A DNA stretch of 64,000 bases from Methylibium sp. Root1272 (GTDB taxonomy: Bacteria > Pseudomonadota > Gammaproteobacteria > Burkholderiales > Burkholderiaceae_C): the NCBI RefSeq assembly GCF_001425905.1, contig NZ_LMDY01000014.1, positions 1 through 64,000 of the forward strand, given 5' to 3'. Below, one piece after another: positions 1,207 through 43,788 of this stretch (position 1 is the stretch's first letter; the number at the start of each line of letters is the position of its first letter). The notes beneath the pieces were generated by a model, which did no database searches, was not told where the DNA came from, and saw nothing but the letters and a program-made list of their open reading frames with translations. A program made the position numbers and the translations under genes.

Positions 1207-1617
1207 TCACTGCGACGGTGGCTGCTTCGACAGGAACTGGATGTAGGCCACCAGCTCCCAGATCTGTTCCGGCGTGAAGGCATTGCCCCATGGCGGCATG
1301 ATGTCCGAGCCGCGGCGCCCTTCGCTGATGGTCTTGTAGGCATCGGCTGCCACGAAATTCTTGTTGCCCTTGAACGGCGGCGTCTTGCCGCCCTCGCCCT
1401 CTGCGCCGTGGCAGTAGGCGGAGCAAGTGGAGTTGAAGCGCTTCTTGCCGACCTCGATGCGCGCGGCGTCGCCCAGGTCGAAACTCGGGGCGGCAGCGCT
1501 GCTGGCAGACGCTGCCTCGTCGGCAGGCTTGGGCGGCGGCGTGCCGATCGCCGGACCGACGGCACACACCAGTACGGCGGCGAGGGTCACGAGGCGGGGG
1601 CTCAGCGGGCTCTTCAT
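1207..1617 (-). CDS. Secreted c-type cytochrome with a CX3CH haem motif, partner of the upstream PQQ dehydrogenase
   Basis: The 136-residue protein has an N-terminal signal peptide (about residues 1-25), a Pro/Ala-rich linker and one cytochrome c domain. The haem motif is C65-S-A-Y-C69-H70, that is CX3CH with three residues between the cysteines instead of two; the codons TGC TCC GCC TAC TGC CAC confirm it. The likely distal ligand is the Met of MPPWG (about residue 107), followed by a C-terminal helix W-E-L-V-A-Y-I-Q-F-L typical of cytochrome c. It lies 109 bases downstream of the dehydrogenase at 1727-3412 on the same strand, so it probably accepts electrons from that quinoprotein. It is clearly paralogous to the gene at 6012-6395. 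Confidence 0.85.
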   Translation of the reverse strand: MKSPLSPRLVTLAAVLVCAVGPAIGTPPPKPADEAASASSAAAPSFDLGDAARIEVGKKRFNSTCSAYCHGAEGEGGKTPPFKGNKNFVAADAYKTISEGRRGSDIMPPWGNAFTPEQIWELVAYIQFLSKQPPSQ

Positions 1618-1651
1618 CGGAAAGACTTCCTTCTCGTTTCACAAGGTCGAG

Positions 1652-1680
1652 GGGGAGGACGGCCACTAACCGTCCTCCCC
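1652..1680 (-). other. Perfect 11-bp inverted repeat between dehydrogenase 1 and its cytochrome
   Basis: GGGGAGGACGG at 1652-1662 and CCGTCCTCCCC at 1670-1680 form a GC-rich stem with a 7-base loop. No T-run follows on the minus strand, so it is not a standard intrinsic terminator. In the intergenic part of a dehydrogenase-cytochrome operon it could be a processing or mRNA-stabilising hairpin that sets the ratio of the two products. Confidence 0.55.
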
Positions 1681-1726
1681 GTCACGGCGCAGCGAGCGCC
1701 GTCATCAGAACATCACGCGGCCAGTA

Positions 1727-3412
1727 TCAGTCGACGGTGAACACCAGCAGCGCGGCGCCGCCCGGCAGGTTGCGGATCTGCGGGAAGGCCCCGGTCAGGA
1801 AGCCCGGCGCGTGCGAGCCGAGCCCGGTCGGGATCGCGATGTACTGCTTGCCGTTGACCGCATAGCTGATCGGGCCGCCGCGCGCTCCGGAGCCGGCGGC
1901 GAACTTCCACAGTTCCTTGCCGTTGTCGGCGTCGAAGGCGTAGAGGTTGCCGTACATGTCGCCGGTGAACACCAGGCCGCCGGCCGTGGCCAGCGCCGAG
2001 CTGAGCGGCGGCATGTCGAAGCGCACCTTCCAGGCCTGCTTGCCGGTCAGCGGATCGAAGGCGCCGAGCCAGCCGTCGGCCTTCTTGCCCGGAGGATCGG
2101 TCAGCTTGATGTCCGACAGCCCGAGCGACAGCCCGCCGATGCCGGGCACCGGGCCCTGCTTGGCGCTGGTCACGAAGTTGCAGACCTCCATGCCGTGCGA
2201 ATACCACAGCTTGGTGTTCGGGTTGTAGGCCCCGTGGTTCCAGCTGCGCGCGCCCAGCAGGTTGGGGCAGTGCAGCTTCTGCTTGTCGGTCTCGGGGTAG
2301 ACCGGATCGATCGGCAGGCCGGTCTTCGGGTCCACGCCCTTGGCCCAGTTCATGTTCTCGGTGTACTGCCAGGCATTGCGCATGGCACCACTGTCCTTGT
2401 CCATGACGTAGACGAAGCCGTTCTTGTTCAGGTGAACGAGCACGTTCTTGCCCTTGCCGTCCGGCACGAGCAGCGCCTCGTAGGCCGAGTCGAAGTCCCA
2501 GGTGTCCTGCGGCACTTCCTGGCGGTGCCACTTGATCTTGCCGGTCTTGGGCTCGAGCGCGAGCAGCGTCGCGGTGTAGAGGTTGTCGCCCTTGCGGTCG
2601 TCGTGGTTGAAGTCGGGCGCGGCGTTGCTGGTACCGATGTAGATCGTGTCGGTCGTCGGGTCGTAGGTGCCCGGCAGCCACGCCGAGCCGCCACCGACCT
2701 TGCGGCTGTCGCCGGGCCAGCTCTTCGGATCGTCCTTCGGCACCTCGAAGGTCCAGGTGCGCGCGCCGGTGTCGGCATTGACGGCGAAGATCTTGCCGAT
2801 GATCGGCTGGTCACCCCCGGTGGTGCCGCCGAACAGCGTGTCGCCGGCGAGTTGCGGCGGCGACGAGAACAGCGCGCCGTAGTCCTTCTTCATGTCGGTG
2901 AGCTGGGTCGACCACAGCTCCTTGCCGGTCTTCTGGTCGAGCGCGACGAAGCGGCCGTCCAGCGTGCCGATGAACACCTTGCCGCGGCCCACGGTGACAC
3001 CGCGGCTGGCAGAGCCGTAGAACACTTCCTTGACGATCGGGTCGAGCTTGGCGGTGTAGCGCCAGAGGATCTTGCCGGTGGCGGCGTCGAGCGCGAACAC
3101 GTTGTTGTCCGGCGCGATCGAGTACATCACGCCGTCGATCACGATCGGCGTCGCCTGCAAGCCGTGGGTGATGGTGCCCGGCTGGTGCATCCACGCCATG
3201 CGCAGCTTCTTGACGTTGCTCTTGTTGATCTGCTCGAGCGGGCTGAAGCGCCACGCGTTGTAGCTGCGGTGGTACTGGGGCCAGTTGTTGGGGTCGTCGA
3301 AGCCGGGGCCACTGCCCGCTGCGCCCGCGGGTGCCGCAGCGAACAGGCCGACGGTCAGGGCCGCGGCGAGCGCCGCCAGCTGTTTCTTGTTGCCGCTGGG
3401 AAAGTGATTCAT
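1727..3412 (-). CDS. PQQ-dependent alcohol dehydrogenase 1 (lanthanide-type Asp-x-Asp, no Cys-Cys ring)
   Basis: This is a 561-residue periplasmic quinoprotein with an eight-bladed propeller; tryptophan-docking repeats such as F-A-L-D-A-A-T-G-K-I-L-W are visible. The chosen ATG gives MNHFPSGNKKQLAALAAALT, a signal peptide ending near APAGAAG, with GGAG about 8 bases upstream; the frame stays open further but reads as noncoding there. The predicted catalytic Asp is D306 in W-D-F-D-S. The residue two positions later is D308, the extra acidic ligand seen in lanthanide-dependent XoxF/PedH-type enzymes (calcium enzymes have Ala/Ser). The usual vicinal Cys-Cys before the NRGV-like motif is replaced by G-S-A-S-R-G-V. 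The substrate is unknown; an alcohol is likely. Confidence 0.88.
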   Translation of the reverse strand: MNHFPSGNKKQLAALAAALTVGLFAAAPAGAAGSGPGFDDPNNWPQYHRSYNAWRFSPLEQINKSNVKKLRMAWMHQPGTITHGLQATPIVIDGVMYSIAPDNNVFALDAATGKILWRYTAKLDPIVKEVFYGSASRGVTVGRGKVFIGTLDGRFVALDQKTGKELWSTQLTDMKKDYGALFSSPPQLAGDTLFGGTTGGDQPIIGKIFAVNADTGARTWTFEVPKDDPKSWPGDSRKVGGGSAWLPGTYDPTTDTIYIGTSNAAPDFNHDDRKGDNLYTATLLALEPKTGKIKWHRQEVPQDTWDFDSAYEALLVPDGKGKNVLVHLNKNGFVYVMDKDSGAMRNAWQYTENMNWAKGVDPKTGLPIDPVYPETDKQKLHCPNLLGARSWNHGAYNPNTKLWYSHGMEVCNFVTSAKQGPVPGIGGLSLGLSDIKLTDPPGKKADGWLGAFDPLTGKQAWKVRFDMPPLSSALATAGGLVFTGDMYGNLYAFDADNGKELWKFAAGSGARGGPISYAVNGKQYIAIPTGLGSHAPGFLTGAFPQIRNLPGGAALLVFTVD

Positions 3413-3576
3413 CTCATCGTCTCCATGGTGGTTTTTTAGGTGCTTCTCGTGCGCCGACACACGGTATCGCAGGAGCCCCGGGCACCACAAAGGCAGTTTC
3501 CATGCCACGCGCCGCGGCGGCATCTCAACCGCACCGGACCGCGGTGCGCTGCAGATGTCGCGACGCGACGATCGGC

Positions 3577-3590
3577 GCGACAGGTGTCGC
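3577..3590. promoter_or_regulatory. Inverted repeat GCGACA-GG-TGTCGC
   Basis: A perfect 6-bp inverted repeat with a 2-base centre, GCGACAGGTGTCGC, lies 165 bases upstream of the dehydrogenase 1 start. Related GCGACA/TGTCGC elements recur at 6680-6829 before the porin and at 12074-12097 before the GlcG-like gene. This suggests a shared regulator of the cluster, although such short GC-rich motifs can also recur by chance. Confidence 0.4.
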
Positions 3591-3720
3591 AGCGACGGCG
3601 GCACCGAGTGTGCGCATCGGCGTCGCAGCGAGCGCGTGAGCAGCGATCGCGAGCTCGCTCCACACGGTGACCTCGCCGATTTCTCGCATTTCTCTAGCGG
3701 GGGATTCACGCCGCGAATAC

Positions 3721-3788
3721 GGGAATTCGTCCCGACATATCGCACGCGGGAAGTTATCCCGGGTTATGCCGGGTCGGGAGTTAATCCC
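3721..3788. promoter_or_regulatory. Three phased GGGA-N5-TCCC operator palindromes
   Basis: GGGAATTCGTCCC (3721-3733), GGGAAGTTATCCC (3748-3760) and GGGAGTTAATCCC (3776-3788) share perfect GGGA/TCCC arms with a variable 5-base centre. They start 27 and 28 bases apart, close to 2.6 helical turns. A possible half-site (GGGATTCACG) lies at 3701. They precede a sigma-54-like promoter and dehydrogenase 2. This arrangement is typical of cooperative binding by a dimeric activator such as an enhancer-binding protein or response regulator. The binding protein is not in the window. Confidence 0.65.
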
Positions 3789-3796
3789 TGCAGAAA

Positions 3797-3812
3797 TGGC
3801 ATGTGTCCTGCA
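3797..3812 (+). promoter_or_regulatory. Putative sigma-54 (-24/-12) promoter of dehydrogenase 2
   Basis: TGGCATGTGTCCTGCA matches the RpoN consensus TGGCACG-N4-TTGCA at all key positions: GG at -24 and GC at -12 with correct 10-base spacing. It lies just downstream of the triple palindrome and 131 bases before the ATG at 3943. The match is by eye only. Confidence 0.5.
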
Positions 3813-3942
3813 GCCCGGGGCTGCGCAGGCAGTTTGTCGCTATCCCGCAAATTGCCCGCCGGACCGGTCGGCCGCGTGCCTGCCGAATATATGGAGACAA
3901 GGGACAGGCGCCGCGCGTCGTCCCATCACGAGGAGCAAGACA

Positions 3943-5898
3943 ATGTCGATCAGAACCACGGCGCTGCTGACGGCGACGGCCGCTGCATGCATCGCTGCGA
4001 GTGCCGCCGAGACCGGCAACTGGCGCGAGTACAACGGCGACAAGGCGGGGTCCCGCTTCGAGCCGGGTGTCAACGTCACGCTGCAGAGCGTGAAGTCGAT
4101 GAAGGTGGCCTGGCGCGTGCCGCTGCCCGGCAATCAGTTGCCCATCGACAACCCGGAGCTGCGCACCTGGGTCAACCAGTCCACGCCGCTGGCCATCAAC
4201 GGCGTCCTCTACTCCAGTTCGCCGCTGGGCATCGTGACCGCGCTCGACGGCGCCACCGGCAAGACGCTGTGGACCTGGGACGGCGGTGGCTACGTCGACG
4301 GCACGCCGCCGAACCTGGGCTTCATCAGCCGCGGTGTGACCTACTGGGAAAAGGGTAACGACCAGCGGCTCTTCGTCGGCACCCCCGACGCCTACCTGGT
4401 GGCGCTGAACGCGAAGACCGGCAAGCCGATCGAGAGCTGGGGCGACCAGGGCCGCATCGACCTGACCAAGGGCCTGCGCCGGCCGGTCGATCGCTCGCTG
4501 GTGAGCCCGACCACACCGCCGATCATCTGCGGCGGCCAGGTCATTCCCAGCCTCGCCGTCCTCGACTCCTTCGCGATCGGCCGCGATCCGCTGAAGAACC
4601 ACCCGCCCGGCGACGTGCGCGGCTTCGATCTCATGACCGGCAAGCAGAACTGGGTCTTCCATGCGCCGCCGCAGAAGGGCGAGCCCGGCAACGAGACCTG
4701 GGAAGGCGACTCGGCGCTGTCGACCGGCGGCATGAACCTGTGGACGCGCGCGAGCTGCGACGACGAGCTGGGCGTCGTCTACCTGCCGCTGTCGACGCCG
4801 GCCAACGACTTCTACGGCGGCCAGCGCAAGGGCGACGGCCTGTTCGGTGAATCGCTGGTGGCGCTGAATGCCAAGACCGGCAAGATCGCCTGGTACTACC
4901 AGATCGTGCACCACGGCATCTGGGACTACGACCTGCCCGCCGCGCCCAACCTGATGGACCTCACCGTCGACGGCCGCAAGATCAAGGCCGCGGTGCAGGT
5001 GACCAAGCAGGGCTTCGTGTTCGCCTTCGACCGCGTCAACGGCAAGCCGATCTGGCCGATCGAGGAAAAGGCGGTGCCGCAATCCACCGTGCCCGGCGAG
5101 AAGTCTTCGCCGACGCAGCCCTTCCCCAGCAAGCCGGCACCTTTCGTGCAGCAGGGCGTGACCGAGGACGACCTGATCGACCTGACACCCAAGCTGAAGG
5201 AAGAAGCGAAGAAGATCCTGGCACGCTACAACTACGGCCCGCTGTACTTCCCGCCGACGCTCGACAAGGCCGGCACCCTGGAAGTGCCGGGCGTGCTGGG
5301 CGGCGCAAGCTGGGTGGGTGCGGCGCACAACCCGAAGTCCAACGTGCTCTACGTGCCCTCGTTCACGATCCCCTTCGGCATCAAGCTGAAGAAGGGCACG
5401 ACGGGCGTGTACGACTACACCGGCACCTGGGCCGGTGTCGGCGGTCCGGACGGCCTGCCGCTGTTCAAGCCGCCGTTCAGCACCGTCACCGCGATCGACA
5501 TGAACACCGGCAAGCACCTGTGGCGCATTCCGGCAGGCCGCGGCCCGGTCGATCATCCGGCGTTGAAGGACCTGAAGCTCGACCGAGTGGGCGTGCCGCG
5601 CCAGAGCCATATCGCGCTGACCGAGAACGTGCTGTTCCTGGCACCGGAAGGCACCAACAGCGTCATCGGCCTGTCGGCGCGCGGCAATGCGCTGATCACG
5701 CAGGCCACGAAGGAGGAGCCCGAGCCCTTCCTCTACGCGCATGACGCGAAGACCGGTGCGCTGGTCGGCGAGGTCCGTCTGCCCGGGGGCGTGTTCGGCA
5801 ATCTGATGACCTACACGGCCGGCGGCAAGCAGTTCGTCGTGGCGCCGATCGGCGGTGCCGGCCTCCCGGCCGAACTGGTTGCCGTGCAGGTGAACTGA
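3943..5898 (+). CDS. PQQ-dependent dehydrogenase 2 (membrane glucose dehydrogenase-like family, secreted form)
   Basis: A 651-residue quinoprotein. The ATG at 3943 has AGGAG upstream and gives a signal peptide MSIRTTALLTATAAACIAAS; the frame is open 276 bases further upstream but that part covers the operators. The sequence resembles the glucose/quinate dehydrogenase branch rather than methanol dehydrogenases: H-H-G-I-W-D-Y-D-L-P-A-A-P around D328, and Y-F-P-P-T followed by G-A-S-W-V-G-A-A-H-N-P. The N-terminal membrane anchor of that branch is absent. No vicinal Cys-Cys is present. The following gene is a CX3CH cytochrome, the likely electron acceptor. The substrate cannot be read from sequence; a sugar, polyol or aromatic alcohol is possible. 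Confidence 0.88.
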   Translation: MSIRTTALLTATAAACIAASAAETGNWREYNGDKAGSRFEPGVNVTLQSVKSMKVAWRVPLPGNQLPIDNPELRTWVNQSTPLAINGVLYSSSPLGIVTALDGATGKTLWTWDGGGYVDGTPPNLGFISRGVTYWEKGNDQRLFVGTPDAYLVALNAKTGKPIESWGDQGRIDLTKGLRRPVDRSLVSPTTPPIICGGQVIPSLAVLDSFAIGRDPLKNHPPGDVRGFDLMTGKQNWVFHAPPQKGEPGNETWEGDSALSTGGMNLWTRASCDDELGVVYLPLSTPANDFYGGQRKGDGLFGESLVALNAKTGKIAWYYQIVHHGIWDYDLPAAPNLMDLTVDGRKIKAAVQVTKQGFVFAFDRVNGKPIWPIEEKAVPQSTVPGEKSSPTQPFPSKPAPFVQQGVTEDDLIDLTPKLKEEAKKILARYNYGPLYFPPTLDKAGTLEVPGVLGGASWVGAAHNPKSNVLYVPSFTIPFGIKLKKGTTGVYDYTGTWAGVGGPDGLPLFKPPFSTVTAIDMNTGKHLWRIPAGRGPVDHPALKDLKLDRVGVPRQSHIALTENVLFLAPEGTNSVIGLSARGNALITQATKEEPEPFLYAHDAKTGALVGEVRLPGGVFGNLMTYTAGGKQFVVAPIGGAGLPAELVAVQVN

Positions 5899-6011
5899 GG
5901 CTGCGTGATGCCGGCGAGCACGCTCGCTGGCATCACGCGAGGCGCGGATCAGCCACCGCGGCCCGCGCCTCGTCGAACCCTGCCCCAAGACCACGACCTC
6001 GAAGCTTCCGC

Positions 6012-6395
6012 ATGAGACCTTCCGTTCTGACCCTCACCTTCGTCGCCGGCGTCGCGCTGCTGATCGCACGCGCCCTGGCCGGCGGCTCACCGCCGCCAGA
6101 TCCTGCGGTCGGCGCCGGCCCAGGCGGTGCACCGACGATCGACTTGAGCGATCCCGCGCGCATCCGTGCCGGCAAGAGCCGCTTCGACTCGACCTGCGCG
6201 GCGTTCTGCCACGGCCATGCGCCACCGCTGTTCGTGGGCCGCCAGGATCTGCTGCCCGAATACGCCTTCCGAATGATTTCCGACGGCGGCGGCAGCGCCA
6301 CGCCGATGCCGCCCTGGGGCGATGTATTCACCACCGAAGAGATCTGGGAACTGGTGGCATATCTGAAATTCCTGGGCACGCAGAAGCCGGAGTGA
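6012..6395 (+). CDS. Secreted c-type cytochrome with a CX3CH haem motif, partner of dehydrogenase 2
   Basis: A 127-residue protein with a signal peptide (about residues 1-24) and a single cytochrome c domain. The haem site is C62-A-A-F-C66-H67, a CX3CH motif (codons TGC GCG GCG TTC TGC CAC). The probable axial Met is M99 in M-P-P-W-G-D, followed by the helix I-W-E-L-V-A-Y-L-K-F-L. It lies 113 bases downstream of dehydrogenase 2, same strand. It aligns with the protein at 1207-1617 over the whole domain, including the unusual motif, so the two derive from one ancestor and the third spacer residue is not a sequencing artefact. Confidence 0.85.
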   Translation: MRPSVLTLTFVAGVALLIARALAGGSPPPDPAVGAGPGGAPTIDLSDPARIRAGKSRFDSTCAAFCHGHAPPLFVGRQDLLPEYAFRMISDGGGSATPMPPWGDVFTTEEIWELVAYLKFLGTQKPE

Positions 6396-8341: not shown

Positions 8342-10093
8342 ATGATCCGCTTCAACCTCTCCCGCACGGCAGGGCTGCGCCCGCTCGCCGCCTGCCTGGG
8401 CTTGCTCGCCCTCACCTCGATAGGCCAGGCGCAGGACGCCGAACCGCCGCTCGGCGTCAACGTGCTCGAGGCCACCTTCAAGTGGCGCCCCAACTACGTC
8501 AGCAACGACATGCTGCTCCATGCCGACAAGGACGCCAACAACTGGCTGCACTACGGCAAGGACTACCAGAACACGCGCTTCAGCACGCTGACGCAGATCA
8601 CCACCGAGAACGTGAAGAAGCTGGTCCCGAAGTGGAACCTCTCCTTCGGCGTCAACGAGGCGCAGGACAGCCAGACCACCGTGGTCAACGGCCGCGTCTA
8701 CGTGACCGCCAGCCAGAACAAGGTGTTCTCGCTCGACGGCGTGACCGGCAAGATGCTGTGGAAGTACGAGCGCTCGCTGCCCGGCGACCTGGGCCCCAAG
8801 CTGTGCTGCGACGCGGTGAACCGCGGCGTGGCCGTCTACAAGGACATGGTCTTCATGGCCACGCTCGACACCCACGTCGTCGCGCTGAACAACACCACCG
8901 GCGCGGTCGTGTGGGAAAAGAAGATGGGCGACTACAAGACCGGCGAGATCTACACCTCGATGCCGCTGGTCGCCAAGGGCATGGTGATCGTCGGCAACTC
9001 GGGCGGTGACGTCGGGGCCAACGTCGGCCGCATCACGGCGCTCGACCCGGCCACCGGCAACGTGATCTGGGAGTTCAAGACGCGCCCCACCAGCGCCGAC
9101 CATCCGCAGGCCAAGACCTGGGCCAACGATTCGTGGAAGACCGGCGGCGGCTCGGCCTGGCTGACCGGCACCTACGACGCGAAGACCAACACGGTGCTGT
9201 GGGGCGTGGGCAATCCGGCGCCCGACTTCGATCCGAGCGTGCGCAAGGGCGACAACCTGTACACCAACTCGACGGTGGCGCTCGACGCCGACACCGGCAA
9301 GATCAAGTACCACTTCCAGTACACGCCGAACGACGCCTGGGACTACGACGGCAACAACGAGATGATCCTGGTCGATGACGACAAGGGTCGCAAGGTCTGG
9401 TTGCACGGCGACCGCAACGGCCACCTGTATTCGATCGACCGCACCAACGGCAAGTGCAACTGGGTGGTGCCGATCGCGCGGGTGAACTGGGTCACCGGCT
9501 TCGGCGAGAACTGCCGCCCGATCGTGAACCCCGACAAGGTGCCGGGCTACGACCGCATCGCGACCGACATCGCGCCGATCCTCGATGGCGGCAAGGAATG
9601 GCACCCGGCCGCCTACAGCCTGCGGACCAAGCTGCTCTATGTGCCCTTCATCGACAGCTCGATGGACGTGCAGGCGAAGAAGTCCGAGTGGAAGAAGGGC
9701 GAGTGGTTCCTGTCGTCGAAGGTGCTGAAGGCCAACCCGTACACCGGCGGCGTGAAGGCCTTCAACGCCACCACCGGCGAACAGGTCTGGACGCGCCCGC
9801 AAAGCACCCCGGCCACCAGCGGCCTGCTCGCCACCGCGGGCAAGCTGGTGTTCACCGGCGACGCCGAGGGCTGGTTCAGCGCGCTGAAGGACGACACCGG
9901 CGAGGAGCTGTGGCGCTTCAACGTCGGCACCGGCATCCACGGCAACCCGACCACCTTCACGGCCGACGGCAAGCAGTACGTCGCGATCGTCTACGGCCCG
10001 GGCGGCGGCAGCCTGTGGCCGCTGGTCTACGACGAGCTGTTCAAGCGCAACAACCGCGGCGGCGGGATGATGGTGTTCGGTCTGACCGACTGA
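8342..10093 (+). CDS. PQQ-dependent alcohol dehydrogenase 3 (lanthanide-type, ExaF/PedH-like)
   Basis: A 583-residue periplasmic quinoprotein with a signal peptide ending near S-I-G-Q-A-Q-D. AGGAGA precedes the ATG. It has the vicinal C155-C156 pair followed by D-A-V-N-R-G-V, the Trp-docking repeats, and the active-site stretch T-P-N-D-A-W-D-Y-D-G-N-N-E with catalytic D334 and the extra D336 that marks lanthanide-dependent enzymes. The G-N-N-E context is like the ExaF/PedH ethanol dehydrogenases. It is followed by a binding protein and a CXXCH cytochrome, the typical xox/exa order. It probably oxidises short-chain alcohols and passes electrons to the cytochrome at 10929-11435. Confidence 0.92.
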   Translation: MIRFNLSRTAGLRPLAACLGLLALTSIGQAQDAEPPLGVNVLEATFKWRPNYVSNDMLLHADKDANNWLHYGKDYQNTRFSTLTQITTENVKKLVPKWNLSFGVNEAQDSQTTVVNGRVYVTASQNKVFSLDGVTGKMLWKYERSLPGDLGPKLCCDAVNRGVAVYKDMVFMATLDTHVVALNNTTGAVVWEKKMGDYKTGEIYTSMPLVAKGMVIVGNSGGDVGANVGRITALDPATGNVIWEFKTRPTSADHPQAKTWANDSWKTGGGSAWLTGTYDAKTNTVLWGVGNPAPDFDPSVRKGDNLYTNSTVALDADTGKIKYHFQYTPNDAWDYDGNNEMILVDDDKGRKVWLHGDRNGHLYSIDRTNGKCNWVVPIARVNWVTGFGENCRPIVNPDKVPGYDRIATDIAPILDGGKEWHPAAYSLRTKLLYVPFIDSSMDVQAKKSEWKKGEWFLSSKVLKANPYTGGVKAFNATTGEQVWTRPQSTPATSGLLATAGKLVFTGDAEGWFSALKDDTGEELWRFNVGTGIHGNPTTFTADGKQYVAIVYGPGGGSLWPLVYDELFKRNNRGGGMMVFGLTD

Positions 10094-10143: not shown

Positions 10144-10932
10144 ATGAAACGCTTTTCGAGTTTCCTTCTCGCCGCGGCCCTGCTGGCCGCGGCCTTCCCG
10201 GGCCGCGCCGCCGACAACGCGCCGCCCGCCTACCTCAAGGTCTGCGTCGACAGCGACGATGCGCCGTTCTCGCTGGAAGCGAACCCGGAGCGCGGCATCG
10301 ACGTCGAGGTCGCCCAGGCGCTGGCGCAGCAGCTCGGCCGGCCGCTGAAGCTGGTGTGGGTGCAGGTGCCCAGCCGCGGCGGCCTCGGCAAGGCGCTGCG
10401 GCAGACCATTGCCGCCGGGCAATGCGATGCCTACCTCGGCATTCCGCAAGGACCCGACATGGGTCGCGAGCTGGCCGAACGCCAGCTCGTGGCGACCGGC
10501 CCCTACCTGACGCTCGGCTACGTGCTGGTCGGCAAGCCCGGCAGTGCGCCGCCGACAGCCGCCACGCTGCGGCGTGCGAAGAAGGTCGGCGCCACCTCTG
10601 CGACGCCGGCCGACCTCTATCTGCACCGCATGCAACTCGCTCGCGCGCCCTACGCCGGCAGCGCGGCGTTGATCGCGGCACTGAAGGCCGGCGAGATCGA
10701 GCTCGCGCTGGTGTGGTCGCCCGCGCTCGCCGATGAAGCGGCCGCGACCCTGGTCCGGGCCACGGAATCGCTGGACGATGCCGACCTCTACACCGGCCTG
10801 ACCGTCGCGACGCGCAACGCCGACGCGGCGCTGACCAAGGAGATCGCCATGGCGGTCGATGCACTGCGCTCGGAGGGCCGCTTCGATGCGATCGCGCAGC
10901 GCTACGGGCTGCCGCGAATCGCCCGCCGATGA
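10144..10932 (+). CDS. Quinoprotein dehydrogenase-associated periplasmic substrate-binding protein (XoxJ-like)
   Basis: A 262-residue family-3 solute-binding-like protein with a signal peptide (MKRFSSFLLAAALLAAAFPG). The mature N-terminus L-K-V-C-V-D-S-D-D-A-P-F-S is typical of proteins encoded beside PQQ dehydrogenases and thought to help their maturation rather than transport; no ABC permease or ATPase is present. An alternative start at 10093 overlaps the dehydrogenase stop (TGATG), which would allow translational coupling but adds 17 residues before the signal peptide. Its own stop overlaps the next start (ATGA), so dehydrogenase, this gene and the cytochrome form one operon. Confidence 0.85.
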   Translation: MKRFSSFLLAAALLAAAFPGRAADNAPPAYLKVCVDSDDAPFSLEANPERGIDVEVAQALAQQLGRPLKLVWVQVPSRGGLGKALRQTIAAGQCDAYLGIPQGPDMGRELAERQLVATGPYLTLGYVLVGKPGSAPPTAATLRRAKKVGATSATPADLYLHRMQLARAPYAGSAALIAALKAGEIELALVWSPALADEAAATLVRATESLDDADLYTGLTVATRNADAALTKEIAMAVDALRSEGRFDAIAQRYGLPRIARR

Positions 10933-11435
10933 ACAGCCTTTTCTCCATTCCTTTTCGATCTCAGACGATGCGCTCCCCCACGACCTTCCACCGCACGATC
11001 GCCGCCGCACTGTTCGCGGCGGCGCTGCCTGGCCTGACACTGGCCTTCGGCCCGGCACCGACGCCGGGCGCCGCCACGCCCACGACCCACGTCGCCGCAG
11101 CACCGGCCAGCGGCCCGGTGTCCGCCGGTGACGATCTCGAGCGCCAGGGCGGCGAACTGTTCGGCCGCAACTGCCAGCTCTGCCACAACTCGCGCGGCAA
11201 GGGCGGCAAGGGGCCGCAACTCGTCAAGGGCGCCTGGGGCCCCGGCGGCGCCAACAGCGACGACTACATGTTCGGCATCATCAAGAACGGCCGCCCCAAC
11301 ACGCAGATGGGCGGCTTCGGCGGCGCGCTCGGCGATGCGGAGATCCGCGTGATCATCGCCTTCCTGCGGGCCGAGTCGGTGCGCGTGAAGGCCGCCGAGC
11401 GCAAGTCGGCCGACGCCGACAGCGTGCCCTGGTAG
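10929..11435 (+). CDS. c-type cytochrome with CXXCH motif (XoxG-like electron acceptor)
   Basis: A 168-residue secreted monohaem cytochrome c. The haem motif is C82-Q-L-C85-H86, followed by N-S-R-G-K-G-G-K-G-P. The Met ligand is likely in N-T-Q-M-G-G-F-G-G. The start at 10929 overlaps the preceding stop as ATGA; a second in-frame ATG at 10968 gives a more ordinary signal peptide and is an equally good start. It ends the three-gene operon with dehydrogenase 3 and is its likely electron acceptor. Unlike the two other cytochromes of the cluster it has the normal two-residue spacer. Confidence 0.88.
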   Translation: MNSLFSIPFRSQTMRSPTTFHRTIAAALFAAALPGLTLAFGPAPTPGAATPTTHVAAAPASGPVSAGDDLERQGGELFGRNCQLCHNSRGKGGKGPQLVKGAWGPGGANSDDYMFGIIKNGRPNTQMGGFGGALGDAEIRVIIAFLRAESVRVKAAERKSADADSVPW

Positions 11436-19025: not shown

Positions 19026-19075
19026 TGGTAGGCGCGATTGGACTCGAACCAACGACCCCCACCATGTCAAGGTGG
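19026..19075 (-). pseudogene. 3' half of tRNA-Val(GAC): attachment-site copy at the ICE end
   Basis: Read on the minus strand, this is anticodon arm CCACC-TTGACAT-GGTGG (anticodon GAC), variable loop, T-arm GTTGG-TTCGAGT-CCAAT, the 3' acceptor strand CGCGCCT, and ACCA. The 5' half (acceptor strand AGGCGCG and the D-arm) is missing: the sequence beyond 19075 is unrelated. The native tRNA terminator lies on the left. This is what remains at one end when an element integrates at the anticodon-arm region of a tRNA gene. The intact tRNA should be at the other end, outside the window. Confidence 0.85.
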
Positions 19076-19208
19076 GAAAGCGGGACTTTCCGGGATCTCC
19101 GGAGATGCAACTTTTATAGGAGAAAGTGACATCGGAGGTCCCGCGAGGTCTCCTAAAATCCACCCCAGTTTTTGGTACTTTTTTGGTACCTTGCCATCAG
19201 GGGTAGGT

Positions 19209-20381
19209 ATGGCCGTCCGCATAGACACAGTCGCGTCGCGCGAGAAGCTGAAGCCTCGGCGAGGTCCTTACTGGCACCGGGTGCTGAAGGGTTGCCACGT
19301 TGGCTACCGGAAGATGTCCGCCACCGGACACGGATCCTGGCTCGCTCGGGCACGCGACGAAGAGGCTTCCGTGCAGCACTTGTACAAGCCCCTCGGCGAG
19401 TTTCTCGAGCTCGCTGACCACTTGCGCTTCGACGCTGCCGCGAAGGCCGCCCAGGCTTGGTTCGAGCATCTGGGGCGAGGCGGGAACACCAATGGTTCGA
19501 CAGTGGCGGATGCGTGCTCCCGGTACGTGAAGCACCTTCGCGCCCACAAGACCGACCGCGCGGCCGACGATGTCGACGCGCGCTTCAAAAACTACGTGCT
19601 GAACAACCGCAGGTTGGCATCGACTGAGCTGACGAAGTTGACACCATCTCAGCTGGAGGCCTGGCGCAAGGCCCTGAGGGAGTTGCCGACGCGCAGCGGC
19701 GGCCGTCGTGGCGAACTGAGGTCGGAGAGCACCCTGAATCGCGACATGACCTGCTTCCGTGCCGCGTTGAACCTAGCATTTCTGGACGGCCTCGTCACCA
19801 GCGACTTTGCATGGCGCAGCAAGCTCCGACCGATCAAGAACGCCGACAGGCGGCGTGAGCTGTACCTCGACCGATCCCAGCGGCTCATGTTCATCGAGAA
19901 GGCCCCCGCGGACCTCGCCGCTTTCCTGCGCGGCCTATGCCAGTTGCCTCTTCGGCCAGGGGCGCTGGCTAAGCTGACCGCAGGCGACTACGACAAGCGC
20001 CTCAAGGTCCTCAAGGTCGGCCAGGACAAGGCGGGCAAGGATCGGCGGATCAAGATGCCCGATGTCACCGCGGCCTTTTTCGAGGATGCCTGCAAGGACA
20101 AGCTGCCATCGGCCCCGCTGCTTGCGCGTGCCGATGGCAAGGCCTGGAACAAGGATGCCTGGAAAGGTCCGGTCAAAGAAGCTGTGGTGGCTGCCAAGCT
20201 CCCCGAGGGGACAACTGCCTACACCCTGCGTCATAGCGTCATCAGCGATCTGGTGCACGACGGACTCGACCTGCTAACCGTGGCGCAAATCTCGGGGACC
20301 AGCGTCGCCATGATCGAACGCCACTACGGGCACCTGCGAAGCGAAGTCGCGGCAAGCGCTTTGGCCAAGCTTGCTTTGTAA
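19209..20381 (+). CDS. int: Tyrosine recombinase / ICE integrase
   Basis: A 390-residue phage-type integrase. The catalytic set is R249 (L-R-P-G-A-L), R341 in A-Y-T-L-R-H-S (Tyr338 stands where the first His of HxxR is usual) and nucleophile Y373 in E-R-H-Y-G-H. The N-terminal half has the SAM-like core-binding fold region (T-V-A-D-A-C-S-R-Y). The start is the ATG at 19209; the frame extends back into the att fragment but that part is noncoding. It lies 134 bases from the tRNA fragment and would catalyse insertion into and excision from tRNA-Val. Confidence 0.92.
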   Translation: MAVRIDTVASREKLKPRRGPYWHRVLKGCHVGYRKMSATGHGSWLARARDEEASVQHLYKPLGEFLELADHLRFDAAAKAAQAWFEHLGRGGNTNGSTVADACSRYVKHLRAHKTDRAADDVDARFKNYVLNNRRLASTELTKLTPSQLEAWRKALRELPTRSGGRRGELRSESTLNRDMTCFRAALNLAFLDGLVTSDFAWRSKLRPIKNADRRRELYLDRSQRLMFIEKAPADLAAFLRGLCQLPLRPGALAKLTAGDYDKRLKVLKVGQDKAGKDRRIKMPDVTAAFFEDACKDKLPSAPLLARADGKAWNKDAWKGPVKEAVVAAKLPEGTTAYTLRHSVISDLVHDGLDLLTVAQISGTSVAMIERHYGHLRSEVAASALAKLAL

Positions 20382-34438: not shown

Positions 34439-34771
34439 ATGCAAGGCGAAGCCATCTACAAGGGCGCCACGCGCCCGGCCATGAAGCTGGGCATCCCGCT
34501 CGTGCCCCTGGTGGTGCTGTTCGGCACTGGCATGCTGCTGATCATGTGGGGCGGCACCCTGGTGAGCTGGTGGCTCGCCCTCGGCGTGGTCGTGGCCTTC
34601 GTGCCCGCGCTGCTGTGGATGCGCTTCGTGACCTCCAAGGACGACCAGCGCTTCCGCCAGATGTTCGTTGCCCTGAAGCTGCGCCTGCACGACCGCAACC
34701 GCCGCTTCTGGCATGCGCGCAGCTACGCGCCCACCCTCTACCGGGGAGCCCGCGATGCTTGGCATGTCTAG
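34439..34771 (+). CDS. virB3: VirB3 inner-membrane protein
   Basis: A 110-residue protein starting I-Y-K-G-A-T-R-P-A-M, the VirB3/TrbD signature, followed by two adjacent hydrophobic segments and a basic C-terminus. VirB3 associates with VirB4 at the inner membrane. The virB4 start lies 16 bases inside its 3' end. Confidence 0.88.
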   Translation: MQGEAIYKGATRPAMKLGIPLVPLVVLFGTGMLLIMWGGTLVSWWLALGVVVAFVPALLWMRFVTSKDDQRFRQMFVALKLRLHDRNRRFWHARSYAPTLYRGARDAWHV

Positions 34772-37238
34772 GGGCAACGGCGCCGACACACGACCGGGCC
34801 GCAACAGCATCAGGCCTCGGCACTGGGCGCAGGCCCAGGCGGAGAACCCGCTGGCGCGTTTCGTCCCGTTCTCTTCGCTGGTCAGCCCGCACGACGTGAT
34901 CACCCGCGGCGGCGACTACCTGCGCGTCTGGCGGCTCGACGGCGTGGCCTTCGAATGCGCTGACGAGCACCAGATCGGTGAGCGGCACGAGGCGCTTTGC
35001 AGCCTGCTGCGCAACCTGGCTGGCGGCCAGTGGGCGGTGTGGACTCACCGCATCCACCGCGTGGTCAGCGACAGCCTGCAGGACCCGGTGCAACCAGGCT
35101 TCGCGCGCGACCTGTCCCAGGCCTACCAGGCGAAGCTCAGCGAGCGCCGGATGATGAGCAACGAGCTCTACTTGACGCTCGTCTACCGGCCCAACGTATC
35201 CCGCGTGGGCCGTGCCCTGCAATCGACGCAGCGCACCCGTGCCGCCATCGCAGAAGCTCAGGCCGAGGCCCTGCGCGTCATGCAAGAGCGCTCGGCCCTC
35301 GTCGGCCGGGTGCTGCGCGGCTTTGGCCCCGAGTTGCTCGGCACGCGCGAGCAGCGCGGCAGGACCTACTCCGAACTGGCAGAGTTCCTCGGCTACCTGA
35401 TCAACGGCTGCTGGCGGCCGATCCCGATGACCGCCGGCCCGCTGTACCGGACGCTGCCGACCGCGCGCCTGTCCTTCGGCGGCGACAAGCTCGAACTGCG
35501 CCACGGCGATCACCGTCGCTACGCAGCGCTGGTCGACATCAAGGAGTACGCCGACGCGGTCGAGCCTGGCATCCTGAACGCGCTGCTCTACGAAGCCAGC
35601 GAATTCATCGAAACGCAGAGCTTCTCGATCCTGCCGCGTCGAGAGGCGATGCGGGCCCTCGAACTTCAGCGCGACCAGCTGATCGCCAGCGACGACGTGG
35701 TGGCCAGCCAGGTCGCCGAGATGGACGTTGCGTTGAACGAACTCGGCGACGGCCAGTTCTGCATGGGCGAGTACCACTACAGCCTCGTCGTCTTCGGCGA
35801 GGACGTGGCCGATGCCGGACGCCGTGCGGCGCAGGCCATCGGCGCCGTCGGCGAGGCCTCCAGCCTGCAGATGTCCCCGGTGGACCTCGTGGCCGATGCG
35901 GCGTGGTTTGCGCAGATGCCGGGCAACTGGCAGTGGCGGCCCAGGGATGCCAAGCTCAGCTCGCGCGCCTTCGCGGCGCTGTCGAGCGGCCACAACTTCG
36001 CTCGCGGCAAGCGCGACGGCAACCCCTGGGGCGAAGCGCTGGCCCTCCTGCGCACGCCATCGGGCCAGCCCTTCTACCTAAACCTGCACAGCAGCCCCGA
36101 AGGTGAAGACTCCGCCGACAAGAAGCTGCCGGGCAACACGCTCATCATCGGATCGACAGGCGTCGGCAAGACAACGCTGGAGATGTTCCTGCTGACGCTC
36201 ACGCGCAAGTGGGACCCGGCGCCGCGCCTGGTGCTCTTCGACCTGGACCGCGGCTGCGAGATCGCGATCCGTGCGCTCGGTGGCCGGTACTTCACGCTCG
36301 AAGCTGGCAAGCCCACGGGCTGCAACCCGCTGCAGCGCGAGCCGACACCGGCACGCATCCAGTTTTGGGAGCAGTTGATCCGCACCTGCATCGCCACGCC
36401 GGCCATGCCGCTGCTGCCGGCCGACGAGCGTGCCATCGCCGATGCGGTCAAGGCTGTGGCGATGATGCCGGCGCCACTGCGCCGCTTCTCGACCGTGCGG
36501 CAGAACCTACCCAAGGCGGGCGAGAACAGCCTCTTCGAGCGACTCGGCCGCTGGTGCCAGGGCGGCGCGCTCGGCTGGGTCTTCGATCAGGCTGACGACC
36601 GCCTGCTCGATCTGCACGCGGCCAACGTCATCGGCTTCGACACTACCGAGTTCCTCGACCTGCCCGAGGTCCGCACGCCGGTCATGATGTACCTGCTGCA
36701 AGTGATGGAAGAGCTCGTCAACGGCGAGCGGCTGATCTACGTGATCTCGGAGTTCTGGAAGGCGCTCGACCACGAGATCTTCAGCGACTTTGCCAAGCAG
36801 AAGCAGAAAACGATCCGCAAGCAGAATGGGCTCGGCATCTTCGACACTCAGAGCCCGTCCGACGTGCTGCGCCACCCAATCGGCCGCACGATGATCGAGC
36901 AGAGCGTGACCAAGATCTTCTTGGCCAACCCGGAGGCGGTGCGCGAGGAGTACGTCGACGGTTTCGGCCTGACGCAGGCCGAGTTCGACATCGTGCGCAG
37001 CCTGGGTGTGCAGGGCGGCCGGCGCTTCCTGGTCAAGCAGGGCCACGCCAGCGCGATCTGCGAACTGGACCTCGCCGGACTCGAGGACTTCATCACCGTG
37101 CTCTCGGCGACCACCGACAACGTGGCCCTGCTCGACGCCGTGCGCGAACGGCATGGCAACGATCCGTTTCAATGGCTTCCGGTTCTCCTTAGTGAGGTTC
37201 ACGATCGCAGGTTTCGTACCTCCAGGAGAGCCGCATGA
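34755..37238 (+). CDS. virB4: VirB4 conjugation ATPase
   Basis: An 827-residue ATPase that energises pilus and channel assembly. Walker A is G-S-T-G-V-G-K-T-T (about 466-474). The Walker B region reads L-I-Y-V-I-S665-E666-F-W-K-A-L, where VirB4 proteins normally have D-E-F-W or D-E-A-W, so the Mg-coordinating Asp is Ser here. The downstream F-A-K-Q-K-Q-K-T-I-R-K-Q-N-G-L-G-I-F-D-T-Q-S block is well conserved. The start ATG has GGGGAG upstream; earlier in-frame codons lie inside virB3. Confidence 0.92.
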   Translation: MLGMSRGNGADTRPGRNSIRPRHWAQAQAENPLARFVPFSSLVSPHDVITRGGDYLRVWRLDGVAFECADEHQIGERHEALCSLLRNLAGGQWAVWTHRIHRVVSDSLQDPVQPGFARDLSQAYQAKLSERRMMSNELYLTLVYRPNVSRVGRALQSTQRTRAAIAEAQAEALRVMQERSALVGRVLRGFGPELLGTREQRGRTYSELAEFLGYLINGCWRPIPMTAGPLYRTLPTARLSFGGDKLELRHGDHRRYAALVDIKEYADAVEPGILNALLYEASEFIETQSFSILPRREAMRALELQRDQLIASDDVVASQVAEMDVALNELGDGQFCMGEYHYSLVVFGEDVADAGRRAAQAIGAVGEASSLQMSPVDLVADAAWFAQMPGNWQWRPRDAKLSSRAFAALSSGHNFARGKRDGNPWGEALALLRTPSGQPFYLNLHSSPEGEDSADKKLPGNTLIIGSTGVGKTTLEMFLLTLTRKWDPAPRLVLFDLDRGCEIAIRALGGRYFTLEAGKPTGCNPLQREPTPARIQFWEQLIRTCIATPAMPLLPADERAIADAVKAVAMMPAPLRRFSTVRQNLPKAGENSLFERLGRWCQGGALGWVFDQADDRLLDLHAANVIGFDTTEFLDLPEVRTPVMMYLLQVMEELVNGERLIYVISEFWKALDHEIFSDFAKQKQKTIRKQNGLGIFDTQSPSDVLRHPIGRTMIEQSVTKIFLANPEAVREEYVDGFGLTQAEFDIVRSLGVQGGRRFLVKQGHASAICELDLAGLEDFITVLSATTDNVALLDAVRERHGNDPFQWLPVLLSEVHDRRFRTSRRAA

Positions 37239-41249: not shown

Positions 41250-42700
41250 CGCACGACCAGAACGATCCGCGCGACCGCGATCCAAACTTGGGCGCTGACC
41301 GCGAACCCGACGGCAACGCCATCTCGCCGCTGCCCGGCGAGCCGGGCATCCCCAACGTCGCCGCCCGACAGCGTGTTTCGATGTCGAAGAAGGGGCTGCT
41401 GGCGGTGGCACTGCTCGTCGGCTCCCTGGTCGCGGTGGCGGCCGTCACCATCCAGCGCTTCTCGTCCAGCGGCCAGAAGGCCGAGGACGCGGAGTCGAAG
41501 CTAGTGCGCGACAAGCCAGCCGCCGCCACGGCCGAACCACGCAGGCTTGAGATGCCGCCCGCGCCAACCGCGAGTGCCGCGGTGGCGACAGCTCCCCGCA
41601 TCCCCGCCCTGACACCCACGGCCGACGAACTGGCCGAGCCCATCGGAGTTCGCCGCACCGGATCGGGTGCACCGACATCGGGTGCCCCGAAGGTGGCCCC
41701 GCCCGAGGATGCCCCCGTCCTGCTGGTGACCACCCGGCCGGGGGCACTCCCGGCGCCGGGGGCCGCCACCCGAAGGGCGGATGCCTCAGCACCCCCGATC
41801 GAGGGAACAGCCGCACCAGAGGCTGCCGATCCGAACGATCCGATTGCGGCGACGTCGCGCAACCTCCAGGGATACCAGCGCCAGTTGCAGGGCCTGCTCG
41901 ACAACCTCACGAAGACTGCGGCGCTGGCCACGGGCCAGGCCACCGGGCAGATGCCCTCGGGGGCCCTCCTCGGCGGGCCCCCGATGGCGGGCCCCGCACC
42001 CATCGGGGCATCCCCTGCAGGGAGTGGCCTGTTCGGGGGCCAGCTCCAGGGCTCCGCCACTCTGAAGGTGGCTGCCTCGATGCTGGGCAATCGCAGCCTG
42101 ACGCTGCCCAGGGGCACGGCCTTCACCTGTGCACTCAAGACCAAGGTGATCAGCGCCACCTCGGGCCTCGTAGGCTGCCAGGTACAGCGCAACGTCTTCA
42201 GCGACGACGGCCGCGTGCTGCTCATCGAACGCGGGTCCCACCTTGACGGCGAATACCGCATTGCCTCGGTGAGGCCCGGCACCGTCCGCATCCCCGTACT
42301 CTGGACCCGCATCCGCACGCCGCTGGGCGTCACGGTGGACATCGACTCCCCCGGCACCGGCCAAGTCGGCGAGTCCGGCATCGACGGCTACGTCGACAAC
42401 CGCTGGGGCGAGCGTATCGGCGCAGCCATGCTGCTGTCGCTGATCGACGACTCGGTGAAGCTGGTCATCCAGAACCAGGCCAGCGACCGGCAGGCCGACA
42501 CCATCGTGCTGCCATCGACCACGGCCAACACCAGCAAGCTGGCCGAGAAGGTGCTGGACAGCACCATCAACATCCCGCCGCTGATCTACCAGAACCAGGG
42601 CGGCATCGTCGGCATCTACGTCGCCCGCGACGTGGACTTCTCGTCGGTGTACGAGTTGAAGCCCACGGCTGCCGCACCGGCTGGCGAGGTCAGGCCATGA
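41246..42700 (+). CDS. virB10: VirB10 energy-transducing channel protein
   Basis: A 484-residue protein. A charged cytoplasmic N-terminus (about 1-48) precedes one membrane helix (L-L-A-V-A-L-L-V-G-S-L-V-A-V), a long Pro/Ala-rich periplasmic linker (about 75-200), and a C-terminal beta domain with G-T-A-F-T-C-A-L-K-T and R-G-S-H-L-D-G-E-Y, then the antenna and W-G-E-R-I-G-A-A helix. It spans both membranes and senses ATPase activity. It overlaps its neighbours as ATGA. Confidence 0.92.
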   Translation: MTHDQNDPRDRDPNLGADREPDGNAISPLPGEPGIPNVAARQRVSMSKKGLLAVALLVGSLVAVAAVTIQRFSSSGQKAEDAESKLVRDKPAAATAEPRRLEMPPAPTASAAVATAPRIPALTPTADELAEPIGVRRTGSGAPTSGAPKVAPPEDAPVLLVTTRPGALPAPGAATRRADASAPPIEGTAAPEAADPNDPIAATSRNLQGYQRQLQGLLDNLTKTAALATGQATGQMPSGALLGGPPMAGPAPIGASPAGSGLFGGQLQGSATLKVAASMLGNRSLTLPRGTAFTCALKTKVISATSGLVGCQVQRNVFSDDGRVLLIERGSHLDGEYRIASVRPGTVRIPVLWTRIRTPLGVTVDIDSPGTGQVGESGIDGYVDNRWGERIGAAMLLSLIDDSVKLVIQNQASDRQADTIVLPSTTANTSKLAEKVLDSTINIPPLIYQNQGGIVGIYVARDVDFSSVYELKPTAAAPAGEVRP

Positions 42701-43788
42701 ACCAGCACACCTGTGAGCGCGAGGGCCTGGTGAACCTGGATGCGGGCTGGTGCGGCGATGCCACGTCGGTCGTCGAGTTCCTGCGACCTCTGCGCGAGCA
42801 ACTCGATGCGCCCGGCGTGCTGGAGGTCTGCGTGAACCGACCTGGCGAACTGCTCGTTGAGACGGTGCGCGGCTGGCAGACCGTGCCGGCGCCGGAGATG
42901 ACGCAGGAGCGCTGCCTATCACTGGCCACCGCGGTGGCCACCTTCTGCGACCAGCAGGTCAACCAGGAACGGCCGCTGCTGTCCGCCACGCTGCCCAGCG
43001 GCGAGCGCATCCAGTTCGTCATCCCTCCAGCCGTGCCGCGCGGCACCGTGTCGATCACGGTGCGCAAGCCGTCGCACCTGATCAAGCGGCTCGATGACTT
43101 CGAGCGCGAAGGCCTATTCGAGCGCACGGCCACCGTGACGCGCACTCCGAACGCGGAACTGCTTCCCTTCGAGCGCGAACTGGTCGAGCTGAAGGACGCC
43201 GGCCGCTATGCCGAGTTCCTGCGCCTGGCGGTGCGCAAGCACCAGACCATCGTGGTCAGCGGCAAGACCGGCTCGGGCAAGACCACCTTCATGAAGGGCC
43301 TCGTTGAAGAGGTGCCCAAGCACGAGCGCCTGATCACGATCCAGGACACGGCCGAGCTGACGTTGCCGAACCACCCGAACGTCGTGCACCTGTTCTACAG
43401 CAAGGATGCACAGGGGACAGCAAAGGTCACGGCCAAATCGCTGCTCGAAGCCTGCCTGCGCATGAAGCCCGACCGCATCTTTCTGGCTGAGGTGCGCGGC
43501 GACGAGTGCTTCTACTTCGTGCGCCTGGCGGCCTCGGGTCACCCGGGCAGCATCACGAGCGTGCACGCGGGCAGCTGCGCGCTCGCCTTCGAACAGATGT
43601 CGCTGATGATCCGAGAGACCGGCGCCGGCGGCGGCCTGCGCATGGACGAGATCAAGTGGCTGCTGAGCGTGGTGGTCGACGTGATCGTGCAGTTCGATCG
43701 CGACGAGCGCGGGCGCTTCATCTCCGAGATCCTCTACGAGCCCCGACGCCAGCGGCTCGGCCGATGGGATCAGCAGGCCGCGGCATGA
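42697..43788 (+). CDS. virB11: VirB11 traffic ATPase
   Basis: A 363-residue hexameric ATPase of the secretion superfamily. Walker A is G-K-T-G-S-G-K-T-T near 189-197, the Asp box is I-Q-D-T-A-E-L, Walker B is in R-I-F-L-A-E-V-R-G, and the His box is T-S-V-H-A-G. It switches the machinery between pilus building and DNA transfer. Its stop overlaps the virD4 start. Confidence 0.93.
   Translation: MNQHTCEREGLVNLDAGWCGDATSVVEFLRPLREQLDAPGVLEVCVNRPGELLVETVRGWQTVPAPEMTQERCLSLATAVATFCDQQVNQERPLLSATLPSGERIQFVIPPAVPRGTVSITVRKPSHLIKRLDDFEREGLFERTATVTRTPNAELLPFERELVELKDAGRYAEFLRLAVRKHQTIVVSGKTGSGKTTFMKGLVEEVPKHERLITIQDTAELTLPNHPNVVHLFYSKDAQGTAKVTAKSLLEACLRMKPDRIFLAEVRGDECFYFVRLAASGHPGSITSVHAGSCALAFEQMSLMIRETGAGGGLRMDEIKWLLSVVVDVIVQFDRDERGRFISEILYEPRRQRLGRWDQQAAA

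Follow-up and report, generated by a model that had tools for sequence, protein, structure and literature searches.

Does a haem-binding motif with three residues between its cysteines (CX3CH), instead of the ordinary two (CXXCH), mark a genuine kind of cytochrome c, and does that kind belong with one particular sort of quinoprotein? The question is posed by a stretch of 64,000 nucleotides from Methylibium sp. Root1272 (contig NZ_LMDY01000014.1, here C14, of the 4.2 Mb genome; hereafter the window), in which two small cytochromes with CX3CH, P0001 and P0002, lie beside pyrroloquinoline quinone (PQQ) dehydrogenases, DH1 and DH2. We find that CX3CH is here a real, conserved variant of a protein of well-known kind; what is surprising is its probable recurrence among the partners of dehydrogenases without a vicinal cysteine pair (Cys-Cys), and the presence of both spacings in one genome.

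The region between 1.2 and 6.4 kb is made up of two divergent gene pairs – P0001 with DH1 on the minus strand, DH2 with P0002 on the plus strand – followed by a porin and then by DH3, a solute-binding protein and a CXXCH cytochrome, P0003. Start codons were set by eye, and the spacer lengths depend on them: 109 bases from the DH1 stop to the ATG of P0001, 113 between DH2 and P0002, and 530 in the divergent region. The features are as follows.

1207-1617, minus strand: P0001, class I cytochrome c with CX3CH (CSAYCH, residue 65), partner of DH1; called from PF13442 (50.2 bits), the codons and a fold model; DIMPPWG holds the expected Met ligand, and the N-terminus is of the signal-peptide kind
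1727-3412, minus strand: DH1, PQQ dehydrogenase nearest the methanol/ethanol type, with YGSASRG instead of the vicinal Cys pair and a W-D-F-D catalytic site
3413-3942, no strand: divergent region, from the DH1 start codon to the DH2 start codon
3943-5898, plus strand: DH2, quinoprotein nearest the glucose/quinate/shikimate type, without membrane part and without Cys pair
6012-6395, plus strand: P0002, class I cytochrome c with CX3CH (CAAFCH, residue 62), partner of DH2, without an EGxGG stretch after the haem motif
8342-10093, plus strand: DH3, the contrast case; PQQ alcohol dehydrogenase that has CCDAVNRG and is closest to PedH and ExaA
10150-10932, plus strand: family 3 solute-binding protein between DH3 and P0003; start approximate
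10929-11435, plus strand: P0003, cytochrome c whose motif is the ordinary CXXCH (CQLCH), encoded after DH3 and the binding protein

The codons bear out the three motifs given in a preliminary description of this DNA: TGC TCC GCC TAC TGC CAC in P0001, TGC GCG GCG TTC TGC CAC in P0002 and TGC CAG CTC TGC CAC in P0003. P0001 and P0002 are also, as had been stated, paralogous, with 48% identity over their matched part. Within the same genome, PF13442 gives 29 matches at E 0.001 (23 above the Pfam cut-off), 27 of which have CXXCH; the sole two with CX3CH are P0001 and P0002. When a collection of species genomes was scanned with P0001, using six peptide patterns none of which covers the haem motif, all ten relatives found had CX3CH (CAAYCH in seven, CAGYCH in three), in Hyphomicrobium (two), Polynucleobacter, Rhizobacter, Azohydromonas (two), Methyloversatilis (two), one Zoogloeaceae bacterium and another member of the Burkholderiales. 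Nine of these carry a DH1 homologue of 70-86% identity directly upstream, and the tenth (L012) starts at a contig end; a congener (G060) retains both CX3CH cytochromes. As all ten relatives share it, CX3CH is not a local mutation, and the possibility raised beforehand, that homologues would mostly have CXXCH, fails for close homologues. The bare CX3CH pattern in DNA is at chance level across the genome, without enrichment (76 and 86 matches, against 87 and 77 in the reversed control), so that the evidence lies in conservation inside the domain, not in the pattern as such. Met, both haem Cys and His are invariant in a 30-row alignment of both spacings (A4).

Searched against 150 genomes of the same family, P0001 finds matches in 112 at E 0.001, but strong ones only in its own genome, in the congener and in G052, G133 and G044; below about E 1e-8 the matches listed resemble other class I cytochromes. 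A wider search used a profile built on 15 CX3CH and 3 CXXCH rows, a make-up owing to which its counts show how the two states sort with enzymes, not how common each is. At E 1e-14 it matched at least 18 of 399 genomes sampled from the order, at least 1 of 369 from the class and at least 1 of 398 from the phylum, each figure including the genome itself and being a lower bound, as the best 12-14 candidates per genome were scored; in the family of one Hyphomicrobium genome it matched 11 of 103. A plasmid collection yielded two records, both from Skermanella, the one examined being DH1-like with a CXXCH partner (CVYCH). Two relatives call for separate mention: a two-domain protein (L017, 5075-5875, plus strand) combines an ordinary CVSCH and an expanded CAGYCH and thus offers a natural internal control, and a frame in L180 (3933-4742, plus strand) has lost the part with the haem motif and kept the half with the Met ligand, as a pseudogene or an assembly fault would.

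What kind of cytochrome carries the motif? The predicted structure of P0001, the one protein of the pair that was modelled, is a confident class I cytochrome c (predicted local distance difference test score, pLDDT, 93.9) with the Met ligand, which is invariant in alignment A4. Its top Foldseek match is cytochrome cL (7c90; E 4e-4, TMq 0.71), and the highest Z belongs to CcoP (3mk7; Z 12.2, root-mean-square deviation 1.8, 87 residues aligned). Both P0001 and P0002 (49.0 bits) pass the PF13442 cut-off of 27 bits; since they have CX3CH in place of the CXXCH expected of class I cytochromes c, we call them a variant of that class. Neither belongs to the PedF equivalog TIGR04494 (cut-off 122 bits; P0001 28.5 bits, P0002 no match at E 0.001) or to cytochrome cL as defined by TIGR03872 (cut-off 147.8 bits; no match of either at E 0.001, and 26.2 bits for P0003).

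The dehydrogenases differ at the ring position much as had been described: in aligned positions the vicinal Cys-Cys is missing from DH1 (YGSASRG) and DH2 (LGFISRG) and present in DH3 (CCDAVNRG). Against the methanol/ethanol subfamily model TIGR03075, DH1 scores 466.3 bits, just under the cut-off of 480.05, and it lacks the vicinal Cys-Cys ring of that subfamily; by sequence alignment it does have the catalytic residues of the methanol/ethanol family (Asp, Asn, Trp). D306, D308, N263 and W245 are invariant in a 15-row alignment (A5) and align with 1kv9 and PedH; we take D306 to be the catalytic Asp, N263 the metal Asn and W245 the stacking Trp. An Asp occupies the place of the metal-binding Glu (that of GGE in PedH). 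The model of DH1 (pLDDT 84.6) has PedH 6zcv as its nearest fold (E 1.1e-52). In PedH the second Asp of Asp-x-Asp has been tied to lanthanides (PMC5487730). In ExaA the disulfide ring is reported to be essential if transfer to cytochrome c550 is to be efficient (cited in PMC12997753). Residues 382 and 411 of DH1, away from the usual ring, are nearly invariant Cys in the 15-row alignment; another disulfide is possible there.

DH2 is a different matter. It scores 358.7 bits against TIGR03074 (cut-off 832.65), over positions 146-767 of a profile of 783, and so resembles the membrane glucose/quinate/shikimate dehydrogenase kind, without being filed as a member. It is 25-27% identical to the DH1 homologues and scores best with a different subfamily model, so that treating DH1 and DH2 as one type of dehydrogenase, as had been done, is not borne out. 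In listings of the literature on quinoproteins without the Cys pair, or with Methyloversatilis, no paper deals with such a dehydrogenase/cytochrome module; papers on CX3CH (or CXXXCH) cytochromes name no quinoprotein in their titles or listed abstracts, a weak negative given that most subscription journals lie outside the coverage.

How regularly, then, does the longer motif accompany a quinoprotein without Cys-Cys? We scanned 57 fetched loci (a duplicate, L071, on the same contig as L018, was left out) and the first 14 kb of the window, taking cytochromes by a profile match at E 1e-5 and pairing each with a PQQ dehydrogenase frame of the same orientation that lay no more than 400 bases upstream. 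This rule gave 59 cytochrome rows, 38 of them with CX3CH. Behind DH1-type frames stand 20 CX3CH and 11 CXXCH rows, behind DH2-type frames nine CX3CH rows, behind a Cys-Cys enzyme three CXXCH rows (L069, in which the frame is overlong and takes in the position of the binding protein, L114 and L118) and behind an incomplete enzyme one CXXCH row; the other 15 (nine CX3CH, five CXXCH, one motifless) have no upstream dehydrogenase by the rule. L013 (CX3CH) and L112 (CXXCH), where the cytochrome's long stop-to-stop frame overlaps the DH1-type gene, were added as pairs, which brings those behind DH1- or DH2-type enzymes to 42.

Sorted by the enzyme's identity to DH1, the partners separate as follows: CX3CH in 16 of 16 relatives at 70% or more, CXXCH in 12 of 12 at 49-62% (enzymes that also lack Cys-Cys) and CX3CH in five of five at 41-44%; with DH2-type enzymes it is CX3CH in nine of nine, counting L174 and L175, near-identical contigs of one genome on which only the dehydrogenase's end is visible. 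As the rows are related, a Fisher test (16/0 against 0/12) was not used. The Methylibium genome itself holds one of the 12 CXXCH cases, a DH1 paralogue lacking Cys-Cys at C13:208-210 kb with its CXXCH partner (CAYCH) at C13:210 kb. A co-oriented dehydrogenase lies directly upstream of 29 of the 38 CX3CH rows by the rule, 30 with L013; of the remaining eight, L012, L111, L171 and L172 are within about 55 bases of a contig end and four form a CGGFCH group. That group (L113, L115, L116, L117) is a separate one, with a further CxxC (PCLIC) after the motif and no dehydrogenase directly upstream; in L117 its neighbours, judged by eye, are a SelD-like gene before it and an NHL-repeat-like protein after it. 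No DH1-type enzyme examined has CC at the ring position, and nowhere in the scanned loci did a CX3CH cytochrome directly follow a dehydrogenase shown to have CC. L111 and L113 do have a CC enzyme adjoining a CX3CH gene, though on the opposite strand.

A quinoprotein/cytochrome module, as proposed in the preliminary description, therefore exists, in that CX3CH is conserved and its gene in most cases, though not in all, directly follows that of a quinoprotein without Cys-Cys. The accompanying idea, that absence of Cys-Cys goes with CX3CH and its presence with CXXCH, holds in one direction, no CX3CH having been found behind a CC enzyme, but not in the other: since all 12 relatives at 49-62% have CXXCH partners, a missing Cys-Cys does not predict CX3CH.

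The trees suggest how this pattern may have come about. DH1-type enzymes form one clade of 27 rows (support 100/98) in a first dehydrogenase tree, for which CC enzymes and DH2 types served as outgroups; in an enlarged tree, without the DH2 types, the CX3CH-linked enzymes are split into a part of 5 rows and one of 16, separated by CXXCH-linked ones. Forcing these 21 into one clade, a group defined by motif, costs 25 log units and is rejected by the approximately unbiased (AU) test (p 0.0048). The dehydrogenase trees do not include L103, in which the frame is interrupted, or the incomplete L119, which does not show whether it has the Cys pair. Two gains of CX3CH are the simplest account; a single gain would need several losses. 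The cytochrome trees, built on about 91 columns with the haem motif left out, need three changes of motif state and set the CGGFCH group (four loci) apart. The second of them has 50 of the 59 rows, without L062, the CQLCH rows of L069 and the window, the CAICH row of L104, L112 (cut short), L117, L172 and L175 (near-copies of L116, L171 and L174) and L180 (haem site lost).

The residues around the expansion hint at its form. Immediately ahead of CH, 37 of the 38 CX3CH rows have Y or F, and all 12 CXXCH partners in the DH1 family have Y; the middle position of the three-residue spacer holds Ala or Gly in 34 of 38. The change thus looks like a step from CxYCH to CxxYCH. A 26-row CX3CH clade of DH1-type partners (99/97) includes nine DH2-kind cytochromes, which lack EGxGG; one of them, L171, lies at the end of its contig, where no dehydrogenase is visible. 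As DH2 itself is remote from DH1 in the dehydrogenase tree, the DH2 operon probably took over a DH1-type cytochrome. Transfer of the operon is likewise indicated, since the Hyphomicrobium dehydrogenases are nested among those of Burkholderiales.

Does the longer spacing call for a haem-attachment machinery of its own? In this genome C15 carries CcmE together with two Cytochrom_C_asm proteins, C17 carries ResB with a further one, and a distant member of that family is on C12, while C14 has none of them; by place and size the Cytochrom_C_asm proteins are CcmC, CcmF, CcsA and the distant member. A dedicated maturation gene, which the preliminary description had suggested looking for, was not found in this genome by two family searches, other families not having been searched for. 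CcmE and ResB were also sought in 21 genomes, which came to 19 with CX3CH after removal of G044 (CXXCH member only) and G1261 (the same as G052): ten have CcmE without ResB, two CcmE with a weak partial ResB match, five both, and two ResB without CcmE (Azohydromonas lata and a Polynucleobacter metagenome-assembled genome of unstated completeness). With Ccm alone in some carriers and CcsBA alone in others, a dedicated gene looks unnecessary. In work by Allen and colleagues from 2009, Ccm of E. coli reportedly attaches haem to CXnCH with n from 2 to 6, cleanly for 3 and 4. Altered spacing or residues at the haem motif are elsewhere described as having given ‘mixed results’ (PMC4158909).

The account that we consider moderately probable is that the CX3CH proteins are acceptors of PQQ dehydrogenases with a haem loop one residue longer, matured by the general Ccm or CcsBA systems, with probably at least two gains and a takeover by DH2; most likely they are acceptors resembling cytochrome cL in which the loop has grown by one small residue. 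Such a protein would be a periplasmic monohaem cytochrome in the role that cytochrome cL or PedF has: it would receive electrons from the PQQ dehydrogenase whose gene lies just upstream and hand them on to the respiratory chain. The added residue would lie close to the first Cys, both Cys, the His and the Met being kept, and the general machinery would attach the haem, most likely via both cysteines. The change would have arisen, probably at least twice, in cytochromes serving one clade of dehydrogenases without Cys-Cys, and a cytochrome of the DH1 type would have passed to a glucose/quinate-type dehydrogenase. The basis of this account is the motif and its conservation, the gene pairing, the predicted fold, the dehydrogenase tree and the distribution of maturation systems, from which we infer the acceptor role, the two thioether bonds, the number and direction of the gains, and the takeover.

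Several points weigh against it. The haem could hang on one thioether bond, and altered cysteine spacing has been described as giving a product with extra sulfur (PMC3601427). The make-up of the search profile, fifteen rows to three, leans the ratio of states towards CX3CH. The group put to the AU test was defined by motif, but at a time when the first tree was already available. A single CX3CH clade is not rejected by the cytochrome trees, whether it takes in all CX3CH rows (p 0.061) or leaves out the CGGFCH group (p 0.163 in the first tree, 0.429 in the second), so that one gain with several losses is a possible history and the claim of two gains rests on the dehydrogenase tree. The fork that places the DH2-kind cytochromes inside their clade, too, lacks resolution in the second cytochrome tree.

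If the haem were held by the second Cys only, the motif would be an AXXCH-like site and the shifted first Cys would be free or a redox switch. Counting back from CH, the normal place of the first Cys is indeed taken by Ala, Gly or Ser in 38 of 38 rows, and cytochromes with a single thioether are known in trypanosomes (PMC4158909); yet none of the 59 rows keeps a haem site without the first Cys, the sole motifless one, L180, having lost the whole site, and we regard this reading as unlikely. Very improbable, in our view, is a dedicated attachment factor resembling NrfEFG or NrfI, which serve CXXCK: there is precedent for CXXCK and CX15CH (PMC3601427), but the genome has one ResB and four Cytochrom_C_asm proteins, none on this contig (other families were not searched for), and carriers manage with System I (Ccm) alone or System II (CcsBA) alone.

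Two further readings concern why the residue was gained and can both be true along with the favoured account. A one-residue insertion tolerated by maturation may have been fixed by descent and operon transfer with no functional meaning, a serious possibility though not one we would call probable: both spacings occur at the same place beside related enzymes, and Allen and colleagues are said in 2009 to have found Ccm tolerant of longer spacers, but there were probably two or more gains among the partners of one enzyme clade, and the insertion is kept in 26 of 26 rows of the main clade. Alternatively, the longer loop might alter haem exposure or potential and so allow electron uptake without a disulfide ring. 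In keeping with such an adaptation, no CX3CH was found directly downstream of a CC dehydrogenase, CC pairs having CXXCH in three of three, and the ring is reported to matter for efficient ExaA transfer (as cited in PMC12997753); the 12 CXXCH partners of enzymes at 49-62% show, however, that a missing ring is not enough, the CC pairs are few and the CX3CH rows represent few independent events, which leaves the adaptation quite unlikely. The boldest version – a selected, recurrent re-tuning of haem c in the acceptors of ring-less quinoproteins, in which the longer loop shifts haem exposure or potential and electrons leave PQQ so as to bypass the vicinal cystine – we hold to be doubtful; were it true, natural monohaem CX3CH cytochromes, handled where only System I and where only System II is present, would be a whole class that work confined to CXXCH has missed.

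Two observations concern other parts of the window. An HbpS-like protein (PF03928; 11530-12294, minus strand) adjoins the PQQ cluster, and the stretch 19038-52891 looks, by Pfam matches, like an integrated conjugative element, no tRNA gene having been found in the window:

19038-20381, plus strand: phage-type integrase
34713-37238, plus strand: VirB4/TrbE-like protein
42697-43788, plus strand: type II/IV secretion ATPase
ending at 45809, plus strand: coupling protein
51920-52891, minus strand: relaxase

Counts restricted to CXXCH would miss proteins of the CX3CH kind, and some genome surveys do count CX3CH and CX4CH beside CXXCH (PMC10734462, PMC13386937). Because natural relatives exist with either spacing, even in the same genome, it can be measured directly what one extra residue does to haem attachment, to potential and to the choice of partner. 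Carriers with Ccm alone and with CcsBA alone form a natural test of what both synthases accept, and quinoproteins without Cys-Cys that have acceptors of their own give a way to ask about the role of the disulfide ring.

Compared with known systems, P0001 and P0002 are like cytochrome cL (MoxG/XoxG) and the c550 cytochromes PedF/ExaB in being small monohaem class I cytochromes beside a PQQ dehydrogenase, yet differ from them in having CX3CH rather than CXXCH, and P0001 falls far below the PedF cut-off. DH1, in turn, is like PedH, its nearest fold, in keeping Asp-x-Asp, and unlike it in lacking the vicinal Cys pair and in having Asp instead of the Glu of GGE. With the CcoP-type Cytochrome_CBB3 family (PF13442) the two cytochromes share scores above the Pfam cut-off, and the P0001 model superposes on CcoP; unlike CcoP, they are single-domain proteins, are not oxidase subunits and have a haem loop longer by one residue. 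A non-standard haem motif links them to NrfA, with CXXCK, and to MccA, the CX15CH cytochrome of Wolinella. These two need attachment proteins of their own (PMC3601427), unlike the present case, for which none was found in the families searched. Closest in motif are the CymA homologues of Rhodoferax ferrireducens and ImcH, whose CX3CH has been named a putative atypical haem site (PMC6295460). There it is one of several sites in a multihaem protein, beside a transmembrane part, and here a small protein has no other haem site. In the accessible literature, the natural CX3CH sites that are named are such single sites inside multihaem proteins, and what the present locus adds to them is a monohaem family.

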